Source of the DNA: Kutzneria sp. 744
GTDB lineage: Bacteria > Actinomycetota > Actinomycetes > Mycobacteriales > Pseudonocardiaceae
NCBI RefSeq assembly: GCF_000568255.1
Contig: NZ_KK037166.1
Location: 8,500,675 to 8,564,674 of the forward strand
DNA length: 64,000 bases
Reading direction: 5' to 3'
Shown: positions 50,380 through 59,221 of the stretch, one piece after another
Layout: each line of letters starts with the position of its first letter
Position numbering within the stretch: the first letter of the stretch is position 1
Made by a program: the position numbers and the translations under genes
The notes under the pieces: model-generated
What the model was told of the DNA's origin: nothing
Database searches by the model: none
The model's input: the letters and a program-made list of their open reading frames with translations, nothing else

Positions 50380-51228
50380 ATGAAGGTCTTCGTCACCGGC
50401 GGCTCCGGTTATGTGGGCGGCCCGACGATCCGGGCGCTGGTGCGCAACGGCCACCAGGTCGCCGCACTGGCCCGCACCGACAACTCCGTCTCCGCGGTCG
50501 AGGCGTCCGGCGCGGTCGCGGTGCGCGGCGCGTTGACGGACACGGATGTGTTGCGGGAACAGGCTTCCCTCGCCGACGCCGCGATCCACCTCGGCATGGC
50601 CAACGAGCGCACCGCGGAGGTCGACCTCGTCGCCGCCCAGGCGATGCAGGACGGCCTGGCCGACCGCGGCGCCTACGTGCACACGGGCGGGACCTGGGTG
50701 TTCGGCAACACCGACGGCGTGGCCGACGAGACGCACCCGATGTCCCCGCCCGCGCTCACGTCGTGGCGGCTGGACAACGAGAAGCAGGTGCTGGCCAACG
50801 GCGGCCGGCCGGTGATCGTCATGCCGGGCCTGGTGTACGGCAACAACGGCGGCCTGATCCAGGCGTTCTACGTCGACCCGGCGCGCCGGGACGGGGAGCT
50901 GCCGCAGATCGGCGACGGCAGCACCCACTGGGCGCTGGTGCACGTCGAGGACCTGGCCGACCTCTACGTGCGGGCCCTGAATGCCAAGCCCCGCAGCGTT
51001 TTCGTCGGCGTCGACGACCAGAACCCGACGATCGCCGACGTCAGCCGGGCCCTGGCCCACGCGGCCGGCGTCCCGGTGCGGGCGATGGATCTGGCCGAGG
51101 CGACCCGGCGGATGGGCCCGATCGCCGAGGCGTTCGCCCTCGACCAGCAGCTGACCGGCGCGAAGGCCCGCCGGGAGCTCGGATGGCAGCCCCGGCACAC
51201 CGACGCCGTGGCCGAGCTAGCGCTTTAG
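50380..51228 (+). CDS. NAD-dependent epimerase/dehydratase (extended SDR)
   Basis: 282 residues. MKVFVTGGSGYVGGPTIRALV is the NAD(P)-binding turn GxxGxxG. THWALVHVEDLADLYVRAL is the usual downstream motif of atypical extended SDRs. The catalytic Tyr of YxxxK is not in its usual form (WRLDNEKQVL), so the enzyme may be a reductase-like or regulatory member. AAAGGA precedes the ATG by 9 bases. The last 12 bases overlap the convergent ligase gene. Confidence 0.83.
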   Translation: MKVFVTGGSGYVGGPTIRALVRNGHQVAALARTDNSVSAVEASGAVAVRGALTDTDVLREQASLADAAIHLGMANERTAEVDLVAAQAMQDGLADRGAYVHTGGTWVFGNTDGVADETHPMSPPALTSWRLDNEKQVLANGGRPVIVMPGLVYGNNGGLIQAFYVDPARRDGELPQIGDGSTHWALVHVEDLADLYVRALNAKPRSVFVGVDDQNPTIADVSRALAHAAGVPVRAMDLAEATRRMGPIAEAFALDQQLTGAKARRELGWQPRHTDAVAELAL

Positions 51229-52627
51229 CCTGGCCTGTAGGGCTTTCTTGTCCGGCTTGCCGTTCGGGGTCAGCGGCACCTCGGCCAGTTCGGTGATCGT
51301 CGCCGGCACGCTGTTGGCGCCCAACAGTTCCCGCACCAGGTTCCGCAGCCGTTCCGGATCGGGCTTCGAGCCGGTCACGAAGGCGTGGATCGCCTCGCCG
51401 GTGGCCGGGTCCGGCAACCCGGTCACGTAGGCCTGATCGACGGCATCATCCCTGGTCAGGGCGTTTTCGATGGCGCTGGCGTAGACGTTCGTGGCGTTGA
51501 CGATGATCACGTCGCGGGGTCCGGCCGTGCAGGTGCAGCAGGCCGCGCTCGTCGAGGGCGGCCAGGTCCTGGGTGCGCAGCCAGCCGTCGGCCAGCACCT
51601 CGGCGGTCAGCTCCGGCTGACCCCAGTATCCGGCCATCAGGAACGGGCTGCGCACGAACATCTCACCGATCTCGCCCGGCGCCACTTCACGGCCGTCCGG
51701 GTCGCGGAGGCTGATCTCGACGTCGGGGTGCGGCCGGCCGACCGAGCCCATGGCCCGCTCGTCCACGGCATCGGCCGGCGACAGCAGCGAGATCATGCCG
51801 TTCTCGGTCTGCCCGTAGACGTTGAACACCACGGGACCGAGCGCGGCCCGGGCCCGGGCGAACAGCTGCGCGCTCACCGGCGAGCCGGAGATCGCCAGGG
51901 CTCGCAGGCTGCGCACGTCGACGTCCTCGGCGGCCAGCACGTCGAGCATGGCGTGCGCCCGGGGCACGGTCAGCACGGCGGCGGTGATCCGGTGCGTGGC
52001 GAAGACGTGCGGAATGGGCAGGCCGACGCCGATCACCACGGTGCCGCCGGCCAGCAGGCAGCGGGTGGTGTAGTCCAGCATCACGCCGCTGGCCAGCGGT
52101 CCGTGCAGCAGGAACCGGCTGGTGCCGGCGATCATCGCCGCCAGGCCCGGCGTCCAGCTGGTCGGCTGCCAGCGGTAGCGGAAGCCGATGGCGCCGTAGG
52201 TGTGCGCGATGCCCTTAGGCTCCCCGGTGCTGCCGCTGGTGTACACGAGCCGGATGACGTCGTCGGGATCGGCGGACGGCGTCAGCTCGATCGGCTCGTG
52301 GTCGAGCAGCCCGGCCAGCACGTCATCGGTGACGACCAGGTCGATGCCGCCGGCCAGGATGTGCTCCCGCTGCGCGGCCGGCAGCCCCGGCAGGAGGCCG
52401 ACGACCCGGCAGCCCAGCGTGTACGCGGCGAGGTAGGCGGCAAAGGCCTGCGGCATCACGGAAAGCTCCATGGCGACGGCCTTCGCGCCGGTCTCGGCCA
52501 GGCCGCCGGCGACGCGGGCGGCCAGCTCGGCCAGCTCACGGCGGCTGACCCGCCGGTCGTCGTGCTCGAACGCGACGGCCGACGGATTGGCCGCCAACTC
52601 GTCCAACAGCACCTGGGGGAACACCAT
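51217..52627 (-). pseudogene. AMP-dependent acyl-CoA synthetase/ligase, frameshifted near its C-terminus
   Basis: An adenylate-forming enzyme that would activate a carboxylic acid as acyl-AMP and then acyl-CoA. VYTSGSTGEPKG is the P-loop-like A3 motif, FNVYGQTENG is A5, DGWLRTQDLA contains the ribose-binding Asp, and LTPNGKPDKKAL holds the catalytic Lys. The frame changes between HLHGRT and RDVIIVNATN. Removing one G from GGGG at 51516-51519 restores about 470 residues, the normal family length. It diverges from the LysR gene. The acid is unknown. Confidence 0.8.
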
Positions 52628-52699: not shown

Positions 52700-53554
52700 A
52701 TGGACGTCGACCTGCGCAAGCTTCGCTACTTCGTCGCCGTCGCCGAGGAACTGCACTTCGGCCGGGCGGCGGAGCGGCTGCACATCGCCCAACCCGTGCT
52801 GTCGCGGCAGATCCGGGTGCTGGAGGACGAGCTGAAGGTGCAGCTGTTCGCCCGCGACCGTCGACGCACCGAGCTGACGGCGGCGGGGGAGCAGCTGCTG
52901 GCCGACGCCCGGCCCCTGCTGGCCAGCGCCACCGCGCTGCGCCTGCGCGTCGGGCGGGCGGCACGTGGGGAGAACTCGTTCACGGTCGGCTTCATGCCCG
53001 GCCTGATCGTCACCGCTGCCGTGCGGGCCCTGTCCGAGCGGCATCCGTCGCTGGTCGTCAACGTCGTGCGGCCTCCTGGGACGACCAGGTCGAGGTCGTG
53101 CACGACGGCCGTGTCGACGTCTCCCTACATCCGGCTGCCGGTCGACCAGTCCGGGCTGACCGTGCGGCCGCTGCTGACCGAGCCCCGCGTCGCCGTGCTG
53201 CCGGCGGATCACCGGCTGGCCGGCAAGGAGACCATCGCCATCGCCGACCTCGCCGACGAGCACCTGTTGCAGGACCCCGACGCCGTGCCGGAGTGGCGGG
53301 ACATCGCCACCGAGCTGCGCGACGGCACCCGGACGCCGGTCGGCCGCTTCCACGCCGTCGAGGAGAAGTTGGAGCACGTGGCCACCGGGCGGGGCATCAC
53401 GGTGCTGCCGCTGTCCACGGCGTCGTTCTACACGCGGCCGGACATCGTGCACGTGACGGTCCGTGACATCGCGCCGAACCAGGTCTGCCTGGCCTGGGAG
53501 GCCGGTCGGCGCGGCGGGCTCATCCAGGAGTTCGCGGCCCTGGCCGGTGGTTAG
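52700..53554 (+). CDS. LysR-family transcriptional regulator (two compensating frameshifts)
   Basis: 284 residues. HTH at 1-60 (RKLRYFVAVAEELHFGRAAERLHIAQPVLSRQI). The substrate-binding domain starts at about 90. The frame is open throughout, but between 53071 and 53124 it gives a nonsense stretch (PPGTTRSRSCTT), while the next frame gives SWDDQVEVVHDGRVDVS, the sequence expected in this family. A missing base near 53070 and an extra C in CCC at 53123-53125 explain it. It diverges from the ligase gene, its likely target, and its end overlaps the SagB-type gene by 4 bases. A GTG one codon upstream is an alternative start. Confidence 0.83.
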   Translation: MDVDLRKLRYFVAVAEELHFGRAAERLHIAQPVLSRQIRVLEDELKVQLFARDRRRTELTAAGEQLLADARPLLASATALRLRVGRAARGENSFTVGFMPGLIVTAAVRALSERHPSLVVNVVRPPGTTRSRSCTTAVSTSPYIRLPVDQSGLTVRPLLTEPRVAVLPADHRLAGKETIAIADLADEHLLQDPDAVPEWRDIATELRDGTRTPVGRFHAVEEKLEHVATGRGITVLPLSTASFYTRPDIVHVTVRDIAPNQVCLAWEAGRRGGLIQEFAALAGG

Positions 53555-54477
53555 GCAGTTCCGACGACGGCGCAGCCGATGGCGAACTCCGTGGCCGGGT
53601 CGCAGCCGATGAGCTCCTCGACCAGCTCGTCCCGGATCGCGGCGGTGAACGTGGTCCGCAGGCCCAGGGCGGTCGCGGTGAGTGACAGGGTCTGGTTCAC
53701 GTGCCCGGCGTCGAGCTGGAGCACGCGGTAGGCGCGAGGCGTGTCCTGGTTGCGGACGATGCTCGTGTAGAAGACGGCGAGGCCGGCGCCGGCGACCCAC
53801 CGCTGATCGCCGCAGGCCGCCACCAGATCGGCGTCGGCCACGGCATCGCCGACCAGGGCGAGCTCGTGCTTGCGGCAGTCGTAGTGGTAGACGCCGGGCT
53901 TGAGGCCCTCCACGTCCCGTACTGCCGGGTACAGTTCGGTCGAGTTCGCGGCGCTGACCTGGAGCAGCGCGCCGAGCGAGGCCAGCGGCAGCGGGCCGGG
54001 GCCGAAGTCCCGGTGGTCGCGGCGAAGCTGGAGCACCTCCAGCAGATCCCGGTTGCGCCACTGGGCGTCCTCGGCCGCCGGCAGCGGGATCCGCTCGGTG
54101 TCGGGGAAGGTGCTGACCGGATCGAGCCGGTCAGCGGGCCGGTCGGCGCCGGGGAACCGGGTGCCGCGGGTGGTCCGCGTCGAGTAGTGGTACGCCCTGG
54201 CCACCGGCCCCCACTGGCCCCAGGCGTGCAGCACGGCCTGCTCCTGGGCGTCCCGCTGCGAGCCCTCGGCCACGAGCACGTCGTTGGCGAGCAGGGCGTC
54301 CCGGGCCGGTCGCAGCCGCTCCGGCACCGAGTCGCGGTCCCGCCAGCGCAGGAACCAGCGCATCACCTCGTCGGTGTCGGTGCCCAGCGTGAGCTGCCGG
54401 TGGTCCAGGTAGTCGTCCCAGACGACCTGGCCATCGATGACGAACACCCCGCCGCACGCGGAGATCCGCAGCCGCAT
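53551..54477 (-). CDS. SagB-type / nitroreductase-family dehydrogenase
   Basis: 308 residues. The C-terminal two thirds are an FMN-dependent nitroreductase fold of the SagB/ThcOx type: LQLRRDHRDFGPGPLPLASLGALLQVS, LKPGVYHYDCRKHELALVGD, RVLQLDAGHVNQTLSLTATALGL and the final EFAIGCAVVG. In RiPP pathways SagB enzymes oxidise thiazolines or oxazolines to thiazoles or oxazoles; other members dehydrogenate different small molecules. The N-terminal third (VVWDDYLDHRQLTLGTD) resembles the extra domain of SagB proteins. The ATG at 54477 overlaps the stop of a 15-codon ORF. Two ABC transporters lie upstream on the same strand. No cyclodehydratase (YcaO) is in the window. Confidence 0.85.
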   Translation of the reverse strand: MRLRISACGGVFVIDGQVVWDDYLDHRQLTLGTDTDEVMRWFLRWRDRDSVPERLRPARDALLANDVLVAEGSQRDAQEQAVLHAWGQWGPVARAYHYSTRTTRGTRFPGADRPADRLDPVSTFPDTERIPLPAAEDAQWRNRDLLEVLQLRRDHRDFGPGPLPLASLGALLQVSAANSTELYPAVRDVEGLKPGVYHYDCRKHELALVGDAVADADLVAACGDQRWVAGAGLAVFYTSIVRNQDTPRAYRVLQLDAGHVNQTLSLTATALGLRTTFTAAIRDELVEELIGCDPATEFAIGCAVVGTA

Positions 54478-54524
54478 CAGGCCACGCCGGGCGACGCGCG
54501 GTCGGTGTCCACAAACTCGTCCAT
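54477..54524 (-). CDS. 15-codon ORF coupled to the SagB-type gene
   Basis: ATG at 54524, peptide MDEFVDTDRASPGVA, stop TGA overlapping the SagB ATG (TGATG). TAACCT, a plausible -10 box, ends 7 bases before the ATG, so it could be read from a leaderless transcript. It may be a RiPP precursor, a translation leader or chance. It lacks Cys and has one Ser and one Thr, which limits azole chemistry. Confidence 0.35.
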   Translation of the reverse strand: MDEFVDTDRASPGVA

Positions 54525-54585
54525 GCCCGTCAGGTTATCGTCGTCTAACCGGAACGGACCAAATCGTTACCGGCCGCGACCAGGA

Positions 54586-56316
54586 TCAACTGCCCGTTCG
54601 ACCGTATGCGCGGGCCTGAATCCGGTACAGCCGCGCGTATCGCCCGTCGGCCGCCATCAGCTCGGCGTGTGAGCCCCGTTCGACCAGCCGGCTGCCGTCG
54701 AGCACCAGGATCTGGTCGGCCATCCGCACGGTGGCGAACCGGTGCGAGACGAGCACCGTCACCCCTGGGCCGCCGGCGTGGGCGTAGCGGTCGAACAGGG
54801 CGTCCTCCGTGGCGGCGTCCAGGGCCGAGGTCGGCTCGTCCAGCACGAGCAACAGGGGAGCGGGTCGCATGAAGCCGCGGGCCAGCGCCACCTTCTGCCA
54901 CTGGCCGTGCGACAGGTCCACGCCGTTCTCCCAGGTCACGCCCAGTTGCGCGGTGAGGTCCGGCACGGCGTCGCCGGCGCCGGCCCGGGCGACGGCTTCG
55001 TGCAGCGCGACCGGATCGTCGATGCGCCTCAGGTCTCCGACGCCGATCGATTCGCCGGCGGTGTACTCGAACGGGAAGAAGTCCTGGAACGCGCCGGAAG
55101 TCCTTTCCCGCCATCGCTGTGCGTCGATCGTCGCGAGATCGACGCCGTCGACGAGGATGCGGCCGGCGGTGGGTTGGTAGAGCCGGCACAGCAGCTTGAC
55201 CAGCGTGGACTTGCCGGCGCCGTTCTCGCCGACGACGGCGACGGTCGTGCCGGCGTTGAGGGTGACGGTGACGTCGTCGAGCACGTTCCGGTCGATGCCG
55301 GGGTAGCGGAAGGTGACGTTCTCCAGGTGGATGCCGGTTTTCAGGCGAGCCGGCGGATGGCGGTCGGCGTGCTGGGCCTGGGCCGTCGCGTAGTCCTCCA
55401 GCCAGGCCAGGCGGCGGGCGACATCGAGCCAGATCGTGCGGAAGAAGTGCGTCTGCTGGACAGTGTTGGCGACGTACTGGGCGAGCCGGCCGCCGGCGGC
55501 CAGGACGAGCAGCAGCGTCGCCGGTTGGCGCACGGTGGTGGCGATCGCCGCGAGGAAGGCCAGGCCGAACAGGGCATGCGCGCCGGCCTGCCACCAGGCC
55601 GTACGCCAGCGGGCCTTGGCGATTGGCCGGTGCCGTTTCCACCACGCCTCGCGGCGCAGGTCGGCGATCTTGTCCTGGACGCCGAAGACGCGGATCTCCT
55701 TGGCCGGACCGGGCGTCGTGCCGAGCTCGAACAGGTGCTTGGCCAGCCGATCGTGCTGCGCGCCGGCCTCTTCGGCCCTCCGCTCGGCGCCGGCCCGCCA
55801 CGTCGACACCAGCACCGCCGGGACCGCGACGACGCCGAGCAGCCCGAACCAGGGGTTGGCGGACATCAGCAGGGCCGCCGTGATCACGAGTCGGACGAGG
55901 GCGCCCAAGGTCGCGAACAGCTGCTGGTAGATCTCGCTCAGGGCGGCGGCGTGGTCGCGCAGCACCCAGATGCGGTCCATGACCTCTGGGCGCTCGTGGT
56001 GCTCCATGGTCGTGATCGAGGACTGGAGGCGGGCCACGTGTTCCTCGACGACGATCGCCGCGCGGTCGGCGAACCGTCGGTTGGCGCGGTCGCTGACCGT
56101 GGTGAGCAGCCAGCCGCCGATGGCCAGCACGGCCAGCGTTCCGGCGGCTGTCGCGGTGTGCGTGGCCAGTTGTGAGAAAGCCAGCGCCAGCAAGGCATCG
56201 GGGATCGCCGCGCCGATCGTCGTGACGAAGGCGACCGCGATCAGCGCGGGGCTGGCGCGGTAGCCCAGTTCGAGGGAGCGGGCCAGCGAGGGCAGCCAGC
56301 CGGGGAGCTCAGTCAT
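54586..56316 (-). CDS. ABC transporter half-molecule (membrane domain plus ATPase), second of the pair
   Basis: 576 residues. Membrane domain about 1-320 with six helices. ATPase about 335-570: Walker A VVGENGAGKSTLV, signature DLSHGQWQKVALARG, Walker B LLLVLDEPTSALD, H loop VLVSHRF. The signature reads LSHGQ instead of LSGGQ. It is an exporter-type half transporter and probably pairs with the one encoded just before it (8-base overlap), as in heterodimeric peptide or drug exporters. No peptidase C39 domain is present. The SagB-type gene follows 62 bases beyond its stop after the small ORF. Confidence 0.88.
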   Translation of the reverse strand: MTELPGWLPSLARSLELGYRASPALIAVAFVTTIGAAIPDALLALAFSQLATHTATAAGTLAVLAIGGWLLTTVSDRANRRFADRAAIVVEEHVARLQSSITTMEHHERPEVMDRIWVLRDHAAALSEIYQQLFATLGALVRLVITAALLMSANPWFGLLGVVAVPAVLVSTWRAGAERRAEEAGAQHDRLAKHLFELGTTPGPAKEIRVFGVQDKIADLRREAWWKRHRPIAKARWRTAWWQAGAHALFGLAFLAAIATTVRQPATLLLVLAAGGRLAQYVANTVQQTHFFRTIWLDVARRLAWLEDYATAQAQHADRHPPARLKTGIHLENVTFRYPGIDRNVLDDVTVTLNAGTTVAVVGENGAGKSTLVKLLCRLYQPTAGRILVDGVDLATIDAQRWRERTSGAFQDFFPFEYTAGESIGVGDLRRIDDPVALHEAVARAGAGDAVPDLTAQLGVTWENGVDLSHGQWQKVALARGFMRPAPLLLVLDEPTSALDAATEDALFDRYAHAGGPGVTVLVSHRFATVRMADQILVLDGSRLVERGSHAELMAADGRYARLYRIQARAYGRTGS

Positions 56317-58012
56317 CAAGGAACCTCGCCGCCTGGAGGTCGAACATCGTGCGGTACTTGCCGTTCGCGGCCATCAGCTCGTCGTGGCTGCCCAGCTCCG
56401 CCACCTTTCCGTTGTCCAGCACGCATATCCGGTCGGCCTGTCGGACCGTGCCGAAGCGGTGCGAGACCAGGATCGTGGTGCAGCCCTTGGTTTGTTCGAG
56501 GAAGTTCGTGAAGGCCTCGGCCTCCCCCTTGACGTCCAGCTGGGCCGTCGGCTCGTCCAGCACGACGATGCCGGCGCCCTGCTTCACCGCCGTCAGCGCC
56601 CGGGCCAGGGCGATCCGCTGCCACTGGCCGCCGGAGAGGTCCGTGCCGCCGTCGTATCCCTTGGACAGCACCGTGTCCAGGTCGGCGAAGTCCGCGCCGG
56701 TGGCCTTCAGCGCGGCTCGTATGTCCTCTTCGGACGATCCGGTGGGGGCGACGTTGTCTCTCAAGGGAAGTTGGTAGCGGATGAAGTCCTGGAACACCGC
56801 CGTCACGTTCTCCCGCCAGTTGCTCAGGGTCTTCAGGTCCTCGCCGTCGGCCTCGACGGCGCCGCCGGTCGGGTCGTAGAGGCGGCAGATCAGCTTGGCC
56901 AGGGTCGTCTTGCCCGCGCCGTTCAGGCCGACCACGGCCATCGAAGTGCCGGCCGGGATGGTGAGATCCAGGCCGTCCAGCACGGGTTCGTCGCTGTTGG
57001 GATAGCTGAATCGGACATTCCTGAACCGAATGGTCGTGCCCTTGGCCATGCGTGAACCGGGTGGCAGGTTGCCGACCTCGGACATCCTCTTCTCCAGCCG
57101 GGCCGCCGACCGGACCGCCTCGACCGCCGGCGGCAGCGCCCAGTTCAGGCCGCCGAAGGCCAGCGCCGCAGTGCCGATCGCCGCTTGGGCGTAGGTGGCC
57201 CTCTCGCTCAGCGTGCTCCCGTCCGTCGCCAGCATCCAGAACACCAGGCCGTTCGCCGCCGCCAGCAGGGCCAGCGTCCAGCCGACCCCGCGTTGACGCA
57301 GCTTCGTGGCCTGCCAGCGGAGGTCGACCAGCCTCCGTCTGTTGTGGACGAACTGGCGGACCGTCCAGTCGCTGAGGCCGAAAAGCCGGATCTCCTTGCC
57401 CGCCGGGGGATCCACCGCCAGCCGGTACGTGTACTCCGCCCGCCGCTGCGCGTACTGCACCTCCGGCGTGTCCCGGTGCCACACGCTGGCGTCCTTCAGC
57501 AGCCAGTGCGTGGCCAGCCAGGCCGCCGCCAGCGCCGCCCCGGCCCACCAGTGGTACGTCGCCAGCAGGATCGCCTGGCCCACGCCCGCCAGCGCCTCCA
57601 CCAGGCTGCCCGCGATCATGCCCATCGACAGCGCCAGCGGCGGGCCCGACACGCCCTGGTCGAAGTCCCTCGCCACCGCCAGCTCGCCGGCCAGGGCCGT
57701 CGACTCCAGGTGGGCGATGCCCGGCGGCCCCGTCGCCGCCGAGATCAGCCGGTCCTGCAGCCGTGACGACAGGCGGTCGCCCAGGTTCGTGCTCACCTGG
57801 CCGTGCACCGGCGCCAGCACCTGCATCAGCAGAAACACCACGCCCAGACCCAGCAGCGCCGCCGGCTCTTGTGTCCCGATCAGCCGCCCCGTCTCATAGG
57901 CAAAGGCCGCCGGCAGAACCGCTTGTGCGACAAGGAGAATCCACCACGCCACGGTCAGGCCGGCATGCGAGCGCCAGAGCGCTTTGACGAAGTCCCCCAC
58001 GAGGCCGAGCAT
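56309..58012 (-). CDS. ABC transporter half-molecule (membrane domain plus ATPase), first of the pair
   Basis: 567 residues. Six membrane helices in about 1-310, then the ATPase domain with Walker A VVGLNGAGKTTLAKL, Q loop, signature DLSGGQWQRIALARAL, Walker B GIVVLDEPTAQLD and H loop ILVSHRFG. All key residues are intact. Its ATGACTGA junction with the second half transporter shows tight coupling, and together they probably export a small molecule or peptide. The ATG at 58012 puts the first helix at the N-terminus; a TTG 9 codons upstream is less likely. The SDR gene lies upstream on the same strand, separated by a family A repeat. Confidence 0.88.
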   Translation of the reverse strand: MLGLVGDFVKALWRSHAGLTVAWWILLVAQAVLPAAFAYETGRLIGTQEPAALLGLGVVFLLMQVLAPVHGQVSTNLGDRLSSRLQDRLISAATGPPGIAHLESTALAGELAVARDFDQGVSGPPLALSMGMIAGSLVEALAGVGQAILLATYHWWAGAALAAAWLATHWLLKDASVWHRDTPEVQYAQRRAEYTYRLAVDPPAGKEIRLFGLSDWTVRQFVHNRRRLVDLRWQATKLRQRGVGWTLALLAAANGLVFWMLATDGSTLSERATYAQAAIGTAALAFGGLNWALPPAVEAVRSAARLEKRMSEVGNLPPGSRMAKGTTIRFRNVRFSYPNSDEPVLDGLDLTIPAGTSMAVVGLNGAGKTTLAKLICRLYDPTGGAVEADGEDLKTLSNWRENVTAVFQDFIRYQLPLRDNVAPTGSSEEDIRAALKATGADFADLDTVLSKGYDGGTDLSGGQWQRIALARALTAVKQGAGIVVLDEPTAQLDVKGEAEAFTNFLEQTKGCTTILVSHRFGTVRQADRICVLDNGKVAELGSHDELMAANGKYRTMFDLQAARFLDD

Positions 58013-58046
58013 TGAACCGGGTAGGGCAGCAGACCGCAACCAATTT

Positions 58047-58099
58047 AACCCCCGCGAGTCACGCTCTCCGACACACCGAAATACGGTTTCGGGCAGACC
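58047..58099. repeat. Intergenic repeat, family A, copy 3
   Basis: 53 bases matching 1976-2028 with a handful of substitutions, starting AACCCCCGCGAGTCACG. It lies directly after the SDR stop and before the first ABC gene. It has no long self-complementary arm of its own, so its terminator strength here is uncertain. Confidence 0.75.
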
Positions 58100-58102
58100 G
58101 GG

Positions 58103-59221
58103 CTATCGGCTCAGCGAGGGGACTGTGCGGGGGGAGGTGGTGTGGGTCTGGTACCAGATCTGGAAGTCGCGCAGGACGGCCAGGTCCAGGTGCCAGGAAG
58201 AGACAGCGGGGGAGGGCACCGCGGCGAGCAGCCGGGAGCGGTCGAAGGTCTTCGCGCCGGTGAGGTACGAGCGGAAGAATTCGATCTTGCGATCGAAGTC
58301 GCGGTCGGCAGGGGCGAAGCCGGCGTCGGAGTAGGTGTAGTGCGGTCGGGACAGGCCGGCGACGTCGAACATGAGGTCGAGGCCGTCGCCGAGCCGGATG
58401 CCGGTGGGGTGCGTGAGGTGGAAGACGCCGGCGTGGCCGGACAGGCTCAGCGACACGGCGTCGGCGGCGACGAGGTCGACGGGAGCCAGGTCGACGGGGG
58501 TGAAGGGGTCGGCCCGAAGCCGCAGGGGGCGGGTGCGGACGGCCGGGTCGCCGAGCATGGAGAGCATGCGCTCGACCTGCACGAGCTGGCGGTGGATGCC
58601 GTACATGCCGGAATGGCCGCCCACCACGGCATGGGTGACGCTGTGCCCGATGACGATGCCGGGCCGCAGGATCCGCTTCGCCATGCCGTCCGCGGCCAGC
58701 ACTACCCACTCGGCGGCGATCTTGCTTTCCTCGTAACGGTTGTTGTGCAGCGGATCGGTGACCGCGCGCTCACGGACCGTCCCGGAACGACGGCCGGCCA
58801 CGTAGGCGGTGCTGAAGTGGTTGAAGGACCGGCAACCCAGGGCGGACGCCAGGTCGACGGCGTGGCGGGTGCCGAGCACGTTGGTGCGCTGCAAACCTTC
58901 CCAGTGCCGTTCCTCGTAGCGCTGGTCGGCGGCGCAGTGCCAGAACTCGGTGGCGCCGGCCGGGAAGCGGGCGGGATCGACGCCACAGAGCGGAAGATCC
59001 ACATCGGCGGCCACGGCGACGCAGCGGTGCCGGATGTCGGCGTCGAACGCCTCGCCGTGGCCGAAGGCCCGGGCGGCGGCGCCGAGGGCGGCCGTCAGCC
59101 GGGCGGCGGCGTCGGAGCGGCCGGGGCGCACGAGGCAGGCGACGTCGACGTCGGTGCGGCGCAGCAGCTCCAGCACGAGCGCCGAGCCGACCAGCCCGGT
59201 TGCTCCGGTGACGACGTGCAC
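58103..59221 (-). CDS. Extended SDR, thioester-reductase / fatty acyl-CoA reductase-like (NAD_binding_4)
   Basis: 372 residues from a GTG. VVTGATGLVGSALVLELL is the NADP-binding turn, VACLVRPGRSD follows, and the catalytic YxxxK appears as NNRYEESKIAAEWV, preceded by FNHFSTAYVAG. This subfamily includes terminal reductase domains of NRPS and carboxylic acid reductases, which reduce a thioester to an aldehyde, and free-standing relatives. A role in finishing a small activated acid made with the nearby ligase is possible, but no carrier protein is seen. It is the first gene of the minus-strand run SDR, ABC, ABC, SagB. Confidence 0.82.
   Translation of the reverse strand: MHVVTGATGLVGSALVLELLRRTDVDVACLVRPGRSDAAARLTAALGAAARAFGHGEAFDADIRHRCVAVAADVDLPLCGVDPARFPAGATEFWHCAADQRYEERHWEGLQRTNVLGTRHAVDLASALGCRSFNHFSTAYVAGRRSGTVRERAVTDPLHNNRYEESKIAAEWVVLAADGMAKRILRPGIVIGHSVTHAVVGGHSGMYGIHRQLVQVERMLSMLGDPAVRTRPLRLRADPFTPVDLAPVDLVAADAVSLSLSGHAGVFHLTHPTGIRLGDGLDLMFDVAGLSRPHYTYSDAGFAPADRDFDRKIEFFRSYLTGAKTFDRSRLLAAVPSPAVSSWHLDLAVLRDFQIWYQTHTTSPRTVPSLSR

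Follow-up and report, generated by a model that had tools for sequence, protein, structure and literature searches.

A 15-codon reading frame and a SagB-type protein in Kutzneria as the probable, re-used remains of a two-gene RiPP-type module

We analysed a 64,000-nucleotide stretch of the genome of Kutzneria sp. 744 (the window; 8.50-8.56 Mb of a genome of 11.65 Mb assembled as a single contig; coordinates below count from the first letter of the window), focusing on a SagB-type gene and the short open reading frame (ORF) directly before it. The list of ORFs and domain searches agreed on the order of genes along the minus strand, and placed each of them where an earlier reading of the same DNA from its letters alone (the sequence-only reading) had put it:

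58103..59221, minus strand: short-chain dehydrogenase/reductase (SDR), thioester-reductase-like (NAD_binding_4, PF07993, 119.8 bits)
56309..58039, minus strand: ATP-binding cassette (ABC) half exporter 1 (ABC1), permease plus ATPase (ABC_tran; Walker A, LSGGQ, DEPT)
54586..56319, minus strand: ABC half exporter 2 (ABC2), permease plus ATPase (ABC_tran; Walker A, LSHGQ, DEPT)
54477..54524, minus strand: 15-codon ORF, MDEFVDTDRASPGVA, apparently what is left of a 34-codon precursor-like ORF after loss of its core
53551..54477, minus strand: SagB-type protein of 308 amino acids, with a putative clamp-like domain at its N terminus and a nitroreductase-fold domain

The genus was represented by seven genomes: the window genome, K. 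buriramensis DSM 45791 (G001), Kutzneria sp. CA-103260 (G006) and four others (G002 to G005). The full SagB-ABC-ABC-SDR block was found at one chromosomal site in four of the seven (the window genome, G002, G005 and G006, called the derived genomes below), flanked by a LysR gene on one side and by genes for an ABM monooxygenase, a flavin adenine dinucleotide (FAD) monooxygenase and AraC on the other; two genes separate LysR from SagB in G002. K. buriramensis carries the SDR and SagB genes at the same site without the ABC pair. G003 gave no SagB or SDR match in this seven-genome comparison, and G004 gave weak matches only (33-38% identity for SagB, 31-34% for the SDR). In a tree of SagB proteins those of Kutzneria group in a single clade, within which K. 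buriramensis branches outside the four derived genomes (support 0.88).

The window SagB is not a generic nitroreductase, as the sequence-only reading had considered it might be, and belongs to the RiPP-associated SagB group (RiPP, ribosomally synthesized and post-translationally modified peptide). It scored 39.7 bits against Nitroreductase (PF00881), 79.7 bits against TIGR03605 (cut-off 78.4, so that the family score is just reached) and 90.3 bits against TIGR04511, under the cut-off of 240; the TIGR03605 score was 122.7 bits for K. buriramensis and 109-123 bits in five other members scanned. Comparison with K. buriramensis and other homologues revealed two in-frame deletions, positioned by hand from the alignment:

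53949..53950, minus strand: site of a 63-nucleotide in-frame deletion (KTxPSGGGRHP segment)
53754..53755, minus strand: site of a 12-nucleotide in-frame deletion beside changed residues, at the RxxW(K/R)Y of homologues

Both deletions are present in all four derived genomes, and every gap relative to K. buriramensis is in frame (further gaps comprise 30-39 nucleotides in the SagB linker, and 6 nucleotides in G006). The removed KTxPSGGGRHP segment aligns with PSGGALYELE of ThcOx, in the domain of that enzyme that holds flavin mononucleotide (FMN). A PSGG(G/A)xxP-type segment is thus deleted in the window genome and its three relatives; K. buriramensis retains it, as do, in some form, all 28 non-Kutzneria homologues aligned. 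The same 28 all retain RxxW(K/R)Y in some form (six read WRY), whereas R and Y are lost from all four derived proteins and W from three of them; the window protein reads RNQ there after its four-residue deletion, and G006 reads WRH. The tyrosine is absent from five of the 33 aligned proteins, all from Kutzneria, and as K. buriramensis itself reads WKH rather than WKY, it would have been lost before the four derived genomes split off. A third motif, RR(S/T)xR, is likewise changed in all four (RRDHR, RRDHR, RHDSR and NQSHR). One paper describes a Lys-Tyr motif as important for catalysis in thiazole/oxazole-modified microcin (TOMM) or azoline dehydrogenases (PMC11055893). We equated W(K/R)Y with that motif through alignment with RLFWKY of ThcOx, and by this alignment the window SagB does not possess it; among the literature matches listed, no paper was on point for McbC Lys201/Tyr202.

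The alignment comprised 28 non-Kutzneria homologues and the five Kutzneria proteins (four close Amycolatopsis sequences, L061, L062, L078 and L079, and more distant SagB matches were left out), and a column was counted as conserved if it was at least 90% conserved among the 28. Of 69 such columns the window SagB misses 17: of the 55 that fall in the nitroreductase domain it has lost 15, of the 3 linker columns 2, and of the 11 N-terminal columns none. The other derived proteins miss 17 (G002), 18 (G005) and 19 (CA-103260), again none of them in the N-terminal domain; K. buriramensis misses nine, one of which is N-terminal, and the 28 outside homologues miss 0-7 each. A structure model of the window SagB (mean predicted local distance difference test score 83.0) displayed a confident, ThcOx-like nitroreductase fold, and its whole chain matched ThcOx from ThcOx residue 115 onwards with a root-mean-square deviation of 8.1. 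The N-terminal domain, a candidate peptide clamp of the RRE-like kind, gave no Pfam PqqD match and no sequence match in the PDB at E 10, and an alignment of three PqqD-like genome stretches was too poor for use. The loss of the PSGG loop and of W(K/R)Y suggests that the window SagB has probably ceased to be a dehydrogenase of the azoline type, with neither normal FMN binding nor peptide dehydrogenation, and the label 'FMN dehydrogenase' is best taken as a family name only, the segment of the FMN site being apparently gone. Elsewhere in the wider search, a SagB homologue at G032:C1:7248141-7249195 (L008, L037) matched in pieces across frames, as if broken.

A protein altered in this way might simply be decaying. 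Pairwise ratios of nonsynonymous to synonymous substitution rates (dN/dS), calculated for the four derived genomes by a simple counting method, were 0.28-0.58 for SagB, 0.20-0.32 for the ABC genes, 0.08-0.21 for the SDR and 0.15-0.18 for the flanking FAD monooxygenase; by domain, SagB gave 0.43 (N-terminal), 0.54 (linker) and 0.35 (nitroreductase), as against 0.14, 0.39 and 0.14 in six Amycolatopsis proteins. If SagB and the short ORF were still-open pseudogene remnants of a dead RiPP cluster, with the SDR and ABC genes unrelated to them, the motif losses, the shortened peptide, the excess of SagB dN/dS over that of the SDR and the raised values of both its domains would all be accounted for. 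The reading frame, however, is open in all four genomes despite synonymous divergences (dS) of 0.29-0.44, the gaps relative to K. buriramensis are multiples of three, and not one of the 11 conserved N-terminal residues has been lost. Moreover, no nonsense change was seen in SagB where 6.5-16.6 were expected under neutrality (approximately 631 substitutions × 0.0103-0.0263; the expectation uses the observed synonymous tree length in a star approximation, and its range reflects base bias). The lack of nonsense changes, together with gaps that are all in frame, indicates that constraint is relaxed but present: SagB is under relaxed yet purifying selection. We regard plain decay as rather unlikely, if the most serious competitor to the reading developed below.

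The 15-codon ORF is coupled to SagB, its TGA stop giving its A to the SagB start codon (TGATG). In K. buriramensis the ORF at this position has 34 codons (MDEFVDTAAVLRPVAGCYDDPVDPWGAPVEFDAA); in the derived genomes it has 11-15, namely MDEFVDTDRASPGVA in the window and MDEIVDTGAVLPGAA, MDEFVDTDAVLPGVT and VDKLVDIGAVT in the others. Its start (GTG in G006), its frame and its TGATG overlap with SagB recur in all five locus-bearing Kutzneria genomes, so the ORF is not a chance occurrence. As a RiPP precursor with leader and core the window ORF falls short, with 15 codons as compared to 34 in K. buriramensis, and the part that was lost would appear to be the core. The genus genomes contain no second copy of the 34-codon ORF, and the window genome yielded neither another full-length peptide gene nor a further close SagB from this group, its only other SagB match being 30% identical and part of an azole cluster (described below). 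A sequencing artefact behind the short ORF or the missing SagB motifs was also rejected, as four separate genomes share them, with identical 63- and 12-nucleotide gaps.

A scan of GTDB contigs with the SagB alignment yielded 29 loci, 27 of them outside Kutzneria. A short ORF directly precedes SagB in 22 of those 27 (the exceptions are L064, L071, L076, L077 and L080), examples being MHDEDDDEFLYELEAEYKAQSTWGGFEPPPHGGPPFRSRR in Amycolatopsis and MIEDVDLEIAFESYSQDYDKPIDEIFGFVTRSEG in Kibdelosporangium and Umezawaea. Ten equal-length Amycolatopsis copies (45 pairs; L057, an eleventh copy shorter by one codon, was omitted) gave a ratio of nonsynonymous to synonymous differences (pN/pS) of 0.19, indicating purifying selection and hence that these ORFs are real coding sequences. 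A regulator of the BTAD family is present in 19 of the 29 loci and a member of the MFS family in seven (one member of each was checked against Pfam). YcaO and TfuA adjoin SagB in three of the 27, all from Nonomuraea (Pfam-checked in L059), and an ATP-grasp gene does so in four. In 24 of the 27 we detected no relative of two YcaO queries within up to 10 kb on each side (less at contig ends), and four of these 24 have the ATP-grasp gene. YcaO occurs somewhere in 17 of the 18 outside-locus genomes tested, so that a distant YcaO could act in trans on such short ORF and SagB loci; the exception is Umezawaea, with no YcaO in its whole genome assembly. At L053-L058, L060-L063, L065-L067, L070, L073-L075, L078 and L079 a short acidic ORF directly precedes SagB, and queries with YcaO, TfuA and ATP-grasp matched nothing in the same flanking sequence. 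Loci of this kind are possible RiPP loci whose SagB works without a local cyclodehydratase.

The 34-codon ORF of K. buriramensis and the short ORF in 22 of 27 outside loci point to descent of the Kutzneria pair from a 'short peptide plus SagB' RiPP-type module. Such a parent module (short precursor and SagB dehydrogenase) is apparently present in other genera and mostly intact in K. buriramensis. The sequence-only reading had taken SagB with a dedicated exporter as a mark of a RiPP pathway; the part of that claim concerning RiPP ancestry is borne out by the short ORFs of the outside loci, while the part requiring an intact flavoenzyme is, on the evidence of the lost motifs, not supported. An exporter, the ABC pair with its motifs intact, does accompany the window SagB, as a RiPP cluster would have it. 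The absence of YcaO from the window was confirmed, as the genome holds four matches (two at 4.46 Mb, one at 9.32 Mb and one at 9.45 Mb), all elsewhere; the adjacent YcaO and TfuA of a TfuA-YcaO thioamidated RiPP locus are missing here. Pfam and/or NCBIfam scans of the proteins encoded between approximately 50.3 and 62.3 kb, other than LysR, detected no ATP-grasp ligase near the locus.

Inspection of the sequence upstream of the 15-codon ORF revealed a candidate signal for its expression:

54532..54537, minus strand: TAACCT, a −10-like hexamer exactly 7 nucleotides upstream of the ATG of the 15-codon ORF

TAACCT, 7 nucleotides and a start codon occur in all five locus-bearing Kutzneria genomes, within a conserved block. 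For Streptomyces coelicolor, one study gives TANNNT as the −10 element, uses the 7 nucleotides after it for the motif, and reports 21% of primary transcription starts as leaderless (PMC4895711). TANNNT was found at the equivalent place in none of 21 short ORFs from other genera (most of which show, by eye, a Shine-Dalgarno-like sequence), and a scan of the region for sigma-70 consensus promoters and terminators returned none of either. The arrangement in Kutzneria suggests that the first cistron is leaderless and that translation re-initiates at SagB through coupling. If the stub is leaderless, then it and SagB would form a transcription unit separable from SDR-ABC-ABC.

We believe the most probable explanation for these observations, and one held with moderate confidence, is that the 15-codon ORF and SagB are what is left of a two-gene RiPP-type module and have probably been re-used, with SagB now non-catalytic and expressed through leaderless, coupled translation. 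The ancestor of all five Kutzneria loci would have changed the tyrosine of W(K/R)Y; later, on the branch leading to the window genome and its three relatives, the peptide core would have been lost with the start-proximal stub kept, and SagB would have shed the PSGG loop and more of W(K/R)Y. Transcription from the TAACCT box would begin exactly at the stub's start codon or close to it; the stub would be translated as a leaderless message, with ribosomes re-starting at TGATG to yield SagB. Selection would then maintain the protein, with its putative clamp-like domain at the N terminus, for binding and not for catalysis. The SDR and ABC pair, seemingly intact, may act on a small molecule of their own, which the one would reduce and the other export. 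These genes share a site with SagB, and their role may be separate from its pathway.

Several observations weigh against this reading. The flanking ABM gene, with no signs of decay, reaches dN/dS values of 0.19-0.68 in the same four genomes, so the raised SagB values are not special evidence of degeneration, and they are in any case drawn from only four genomes by simple counting. K. buriramensis, reading WKH, is not a perfect reference and may not encode a working enzyme. G006 still reads WRH in the W(K/R)Y segment, keeping its W and R, and because the window protein scores just above the TIGR03605 cut-off and is modelled with a nitroreductase fold, residual flavin binding is possible. Finally, the stub is conserved in its first codons, so the peptide itself might still matter. 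A more speculative extension, which we consider unlikely, is that the module has become a non-catalytic pair, in which selection maintains a peptide of 11-15 residues reduced to its leader and a clamp-bearing SagB without flavin. In that case the pair might serve the adjacent exporter and reductase by sensing peptides or controlling expression, and its parent, present in several actinomycete genera, would be a SagB that oxidizes short acidic peptides without a local cyclodehydratase.

The other genes of the block appear intact by their motifs. The SDR retains both GxxGxxG and YxxxK (against TIGR01746 it scored 89.2 bits, under the cut-off of 213.35), and ABC1 and ABC2, whose reading frames overlap, each possess Walker A, signature, Walker B and H-loop motifs. 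In all four carriers the spacer between SDR and ABC1 (57990-58102 in the window; the same spacer in L032, L033 and L034) ends in a GAGCG(T/G)GACTCGC-like motif, and that of G002 has an upstream reverse-complement copy, which would make a long hairpin. Taken with conservation of the block in four of seven genus genomes, the intact SDR and ABC motifs could suggest an active pathway in which SagB, as a working flavoenzyme with an altered site, acts with the SDR on a peptide or acid and the ABC pair exports the product; retention of the nitroreductase fold in the model and purifying selection would suit it too. Such a pathway is nonetheless improbable, as all four proteins are without the PSGG segment and the R and Y of RxxW(K/R)Y and have an altered RR(S/T)xR, no core peptide is present, and the relatives have no ligase beside the locus.

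That ligase, an acyl ligase, lies in the window beyond the LysR gene, which is on the plus strand, tail-to-tail with SagB on its far side. The sequence-only reading was right that both adjoin the block, but its proposal that SagB acts on a product of the ligase was not supported: no counterpart of the ligase was found near the locus in G001, G002, G005 or G006 (best E 0.31), on which ground we rejected it as a pathway partner, and SagB is without motifs that its outside homologues keep. Ligase and LysR are, judging by these comparisons, neighbours and not members of the block. The ligase is divided between two frames (51446-52627 and 51217-51510), its C-terminal domain lying in a different frame from the rest, and LysR has a stretch at approximately 53075-53130 that is out of register relative to G002 through two mutually cancelling shifts; the split ligase (51217-52627) and the register shift may be assembly indels or genuine change.

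The history of the ABC pair can be partly traced. The spacer between SDR and ORF in K. buriramensis aligns with window sequence that begins at the final five codons of ABC2 (score 70, as compared to a maximum of 25 in 1000 shuffles), indicating that the pair was inserted at, or deleted from, that point; since five outside ABC2 proteins stop just short of those five codons, gain by the four derived genomes and loss by K. buriramensis both fit. The window genome also carries an azole-type cluster at 4.46-4.47 Mb (L131), comprising a LanB-like N part, a LanB C-type protein, a SagB with a ThcOx domain, YcaO and a precursor containing SSSSHCSGSCSCGGGSCSC. Among the four stretches holding such clusters (L131, L130, L141 and L142), an ABC pair follows the cluster in K. 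buriramensis only, and that pair is the closest relative of the window pair (59% and 55% identical). One might suppose that the window pair serves the azole (LanB/YcaO/SagB) cluster of its own genome and came to lie beside SagB through relocation; no ABC pair was seen in the cluster stretches read from the window genome, G002 and G006. Against this, K. buriramensis and the window genome share 84-89% identity in five other cluster proteins and just 55-59% in the ABC proteins, and G005 has the ABC pair but a single SagB match, so no azole-cluster SagB was found there. We consider this explanation very improbable.

Outside Kutzneria the block was not recovered. None of the 27 outside SagB loci has a relative of the SDR at E 1e-5, and ABC1 matches occur in just three (all at 27-29% identity). 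In searches of 297 family genomes with the SDR and ABC1 (up to six SDR and four ABC candidates scored per genome), SDR relatives at E ≤1e-30 were found in 10, five of them Kutzneria, and the stretches around the five non-Kutzneria relatives contain no match to the window SagB at 1e-15. The best relatives of the ABC pair outside the locus lie beside the K. buriramensis azole cluster, and also in loci taken from gene calls as a nonribosomal peptide synthetase-type cluster and others. As the best outside SDR and ABC1 matches stand in unrelated contexts, we rejected a cross-genus SDR-ABC-ABC-SagB block. The synteny raised by the sequence-only reading thus holds in four of seven Kutzneria genomes and was not seen in other genera; conversely, the scattering it had named as the outcome that would speak against a pathway applies to the nearest SDR and ABC genes of other genera, and not within the genus, where the site is shared.

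If our preferred reading of a re-used, non-catalytic remnant is correct, a peptide-modification enzyme can lose its chemistry yet be kept, and K. buriramensis and the four derived genomes offer a comparison for testing that loss. The analysis also points to loci with a short acidic peptide and SagB in Amycolatopsis, Kibdelosporangium, Umezawaea, Actinosynnema and others, for which we found no paper in the open-licence literature, where subscription papers are mostly lacking.

The window SagB differs from the SagB/ThcOx azoline dehydrogenases (TIGR03605, TIGR04511; ThcOx 5lq4, McbC 6gos) in being without the PSGG loop and most of W(K/R)Y, and the Kutzneria locus, unlike those systems, has no cyclodehydratase. 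An association of ATP-grasp with SagB has already been published, as branch 6, clusters 367 and 1115, in PMC8939145. SagB of the same wider group stands beside ATP-grasp in four of our 27 loci and also in six family genomes, as judged from gene calls (the one ATP-grasp that was domain-checked, in L071, scored 84.9 bits against TIGR04187, cut-off 350), and we infer that these loci correspond to the clusters of PMC8939145. Unlike such graspetide loci, the Kutzneria locus is without ATP-grasp and its precursor sequence is different. The three Nonomuraea loci resemble TfuA-YcaO RiPP loci, carrying a short ORF, SagB of the same group, YcaO and TfuA; the Kutzneria locus differs from these in having neither YcaO nor TfuA. 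With actinomycete leaderless mRNAs, as characterized in PMC4895711, the Kutzneria stub shares TANNNT, the 7 nucleotides and the start codon. Unlike the leaderless mRNAs described there, the putatively leaderless first cistron in Kutzneria would be a stub of 11-15 codons coupled to the next gene.

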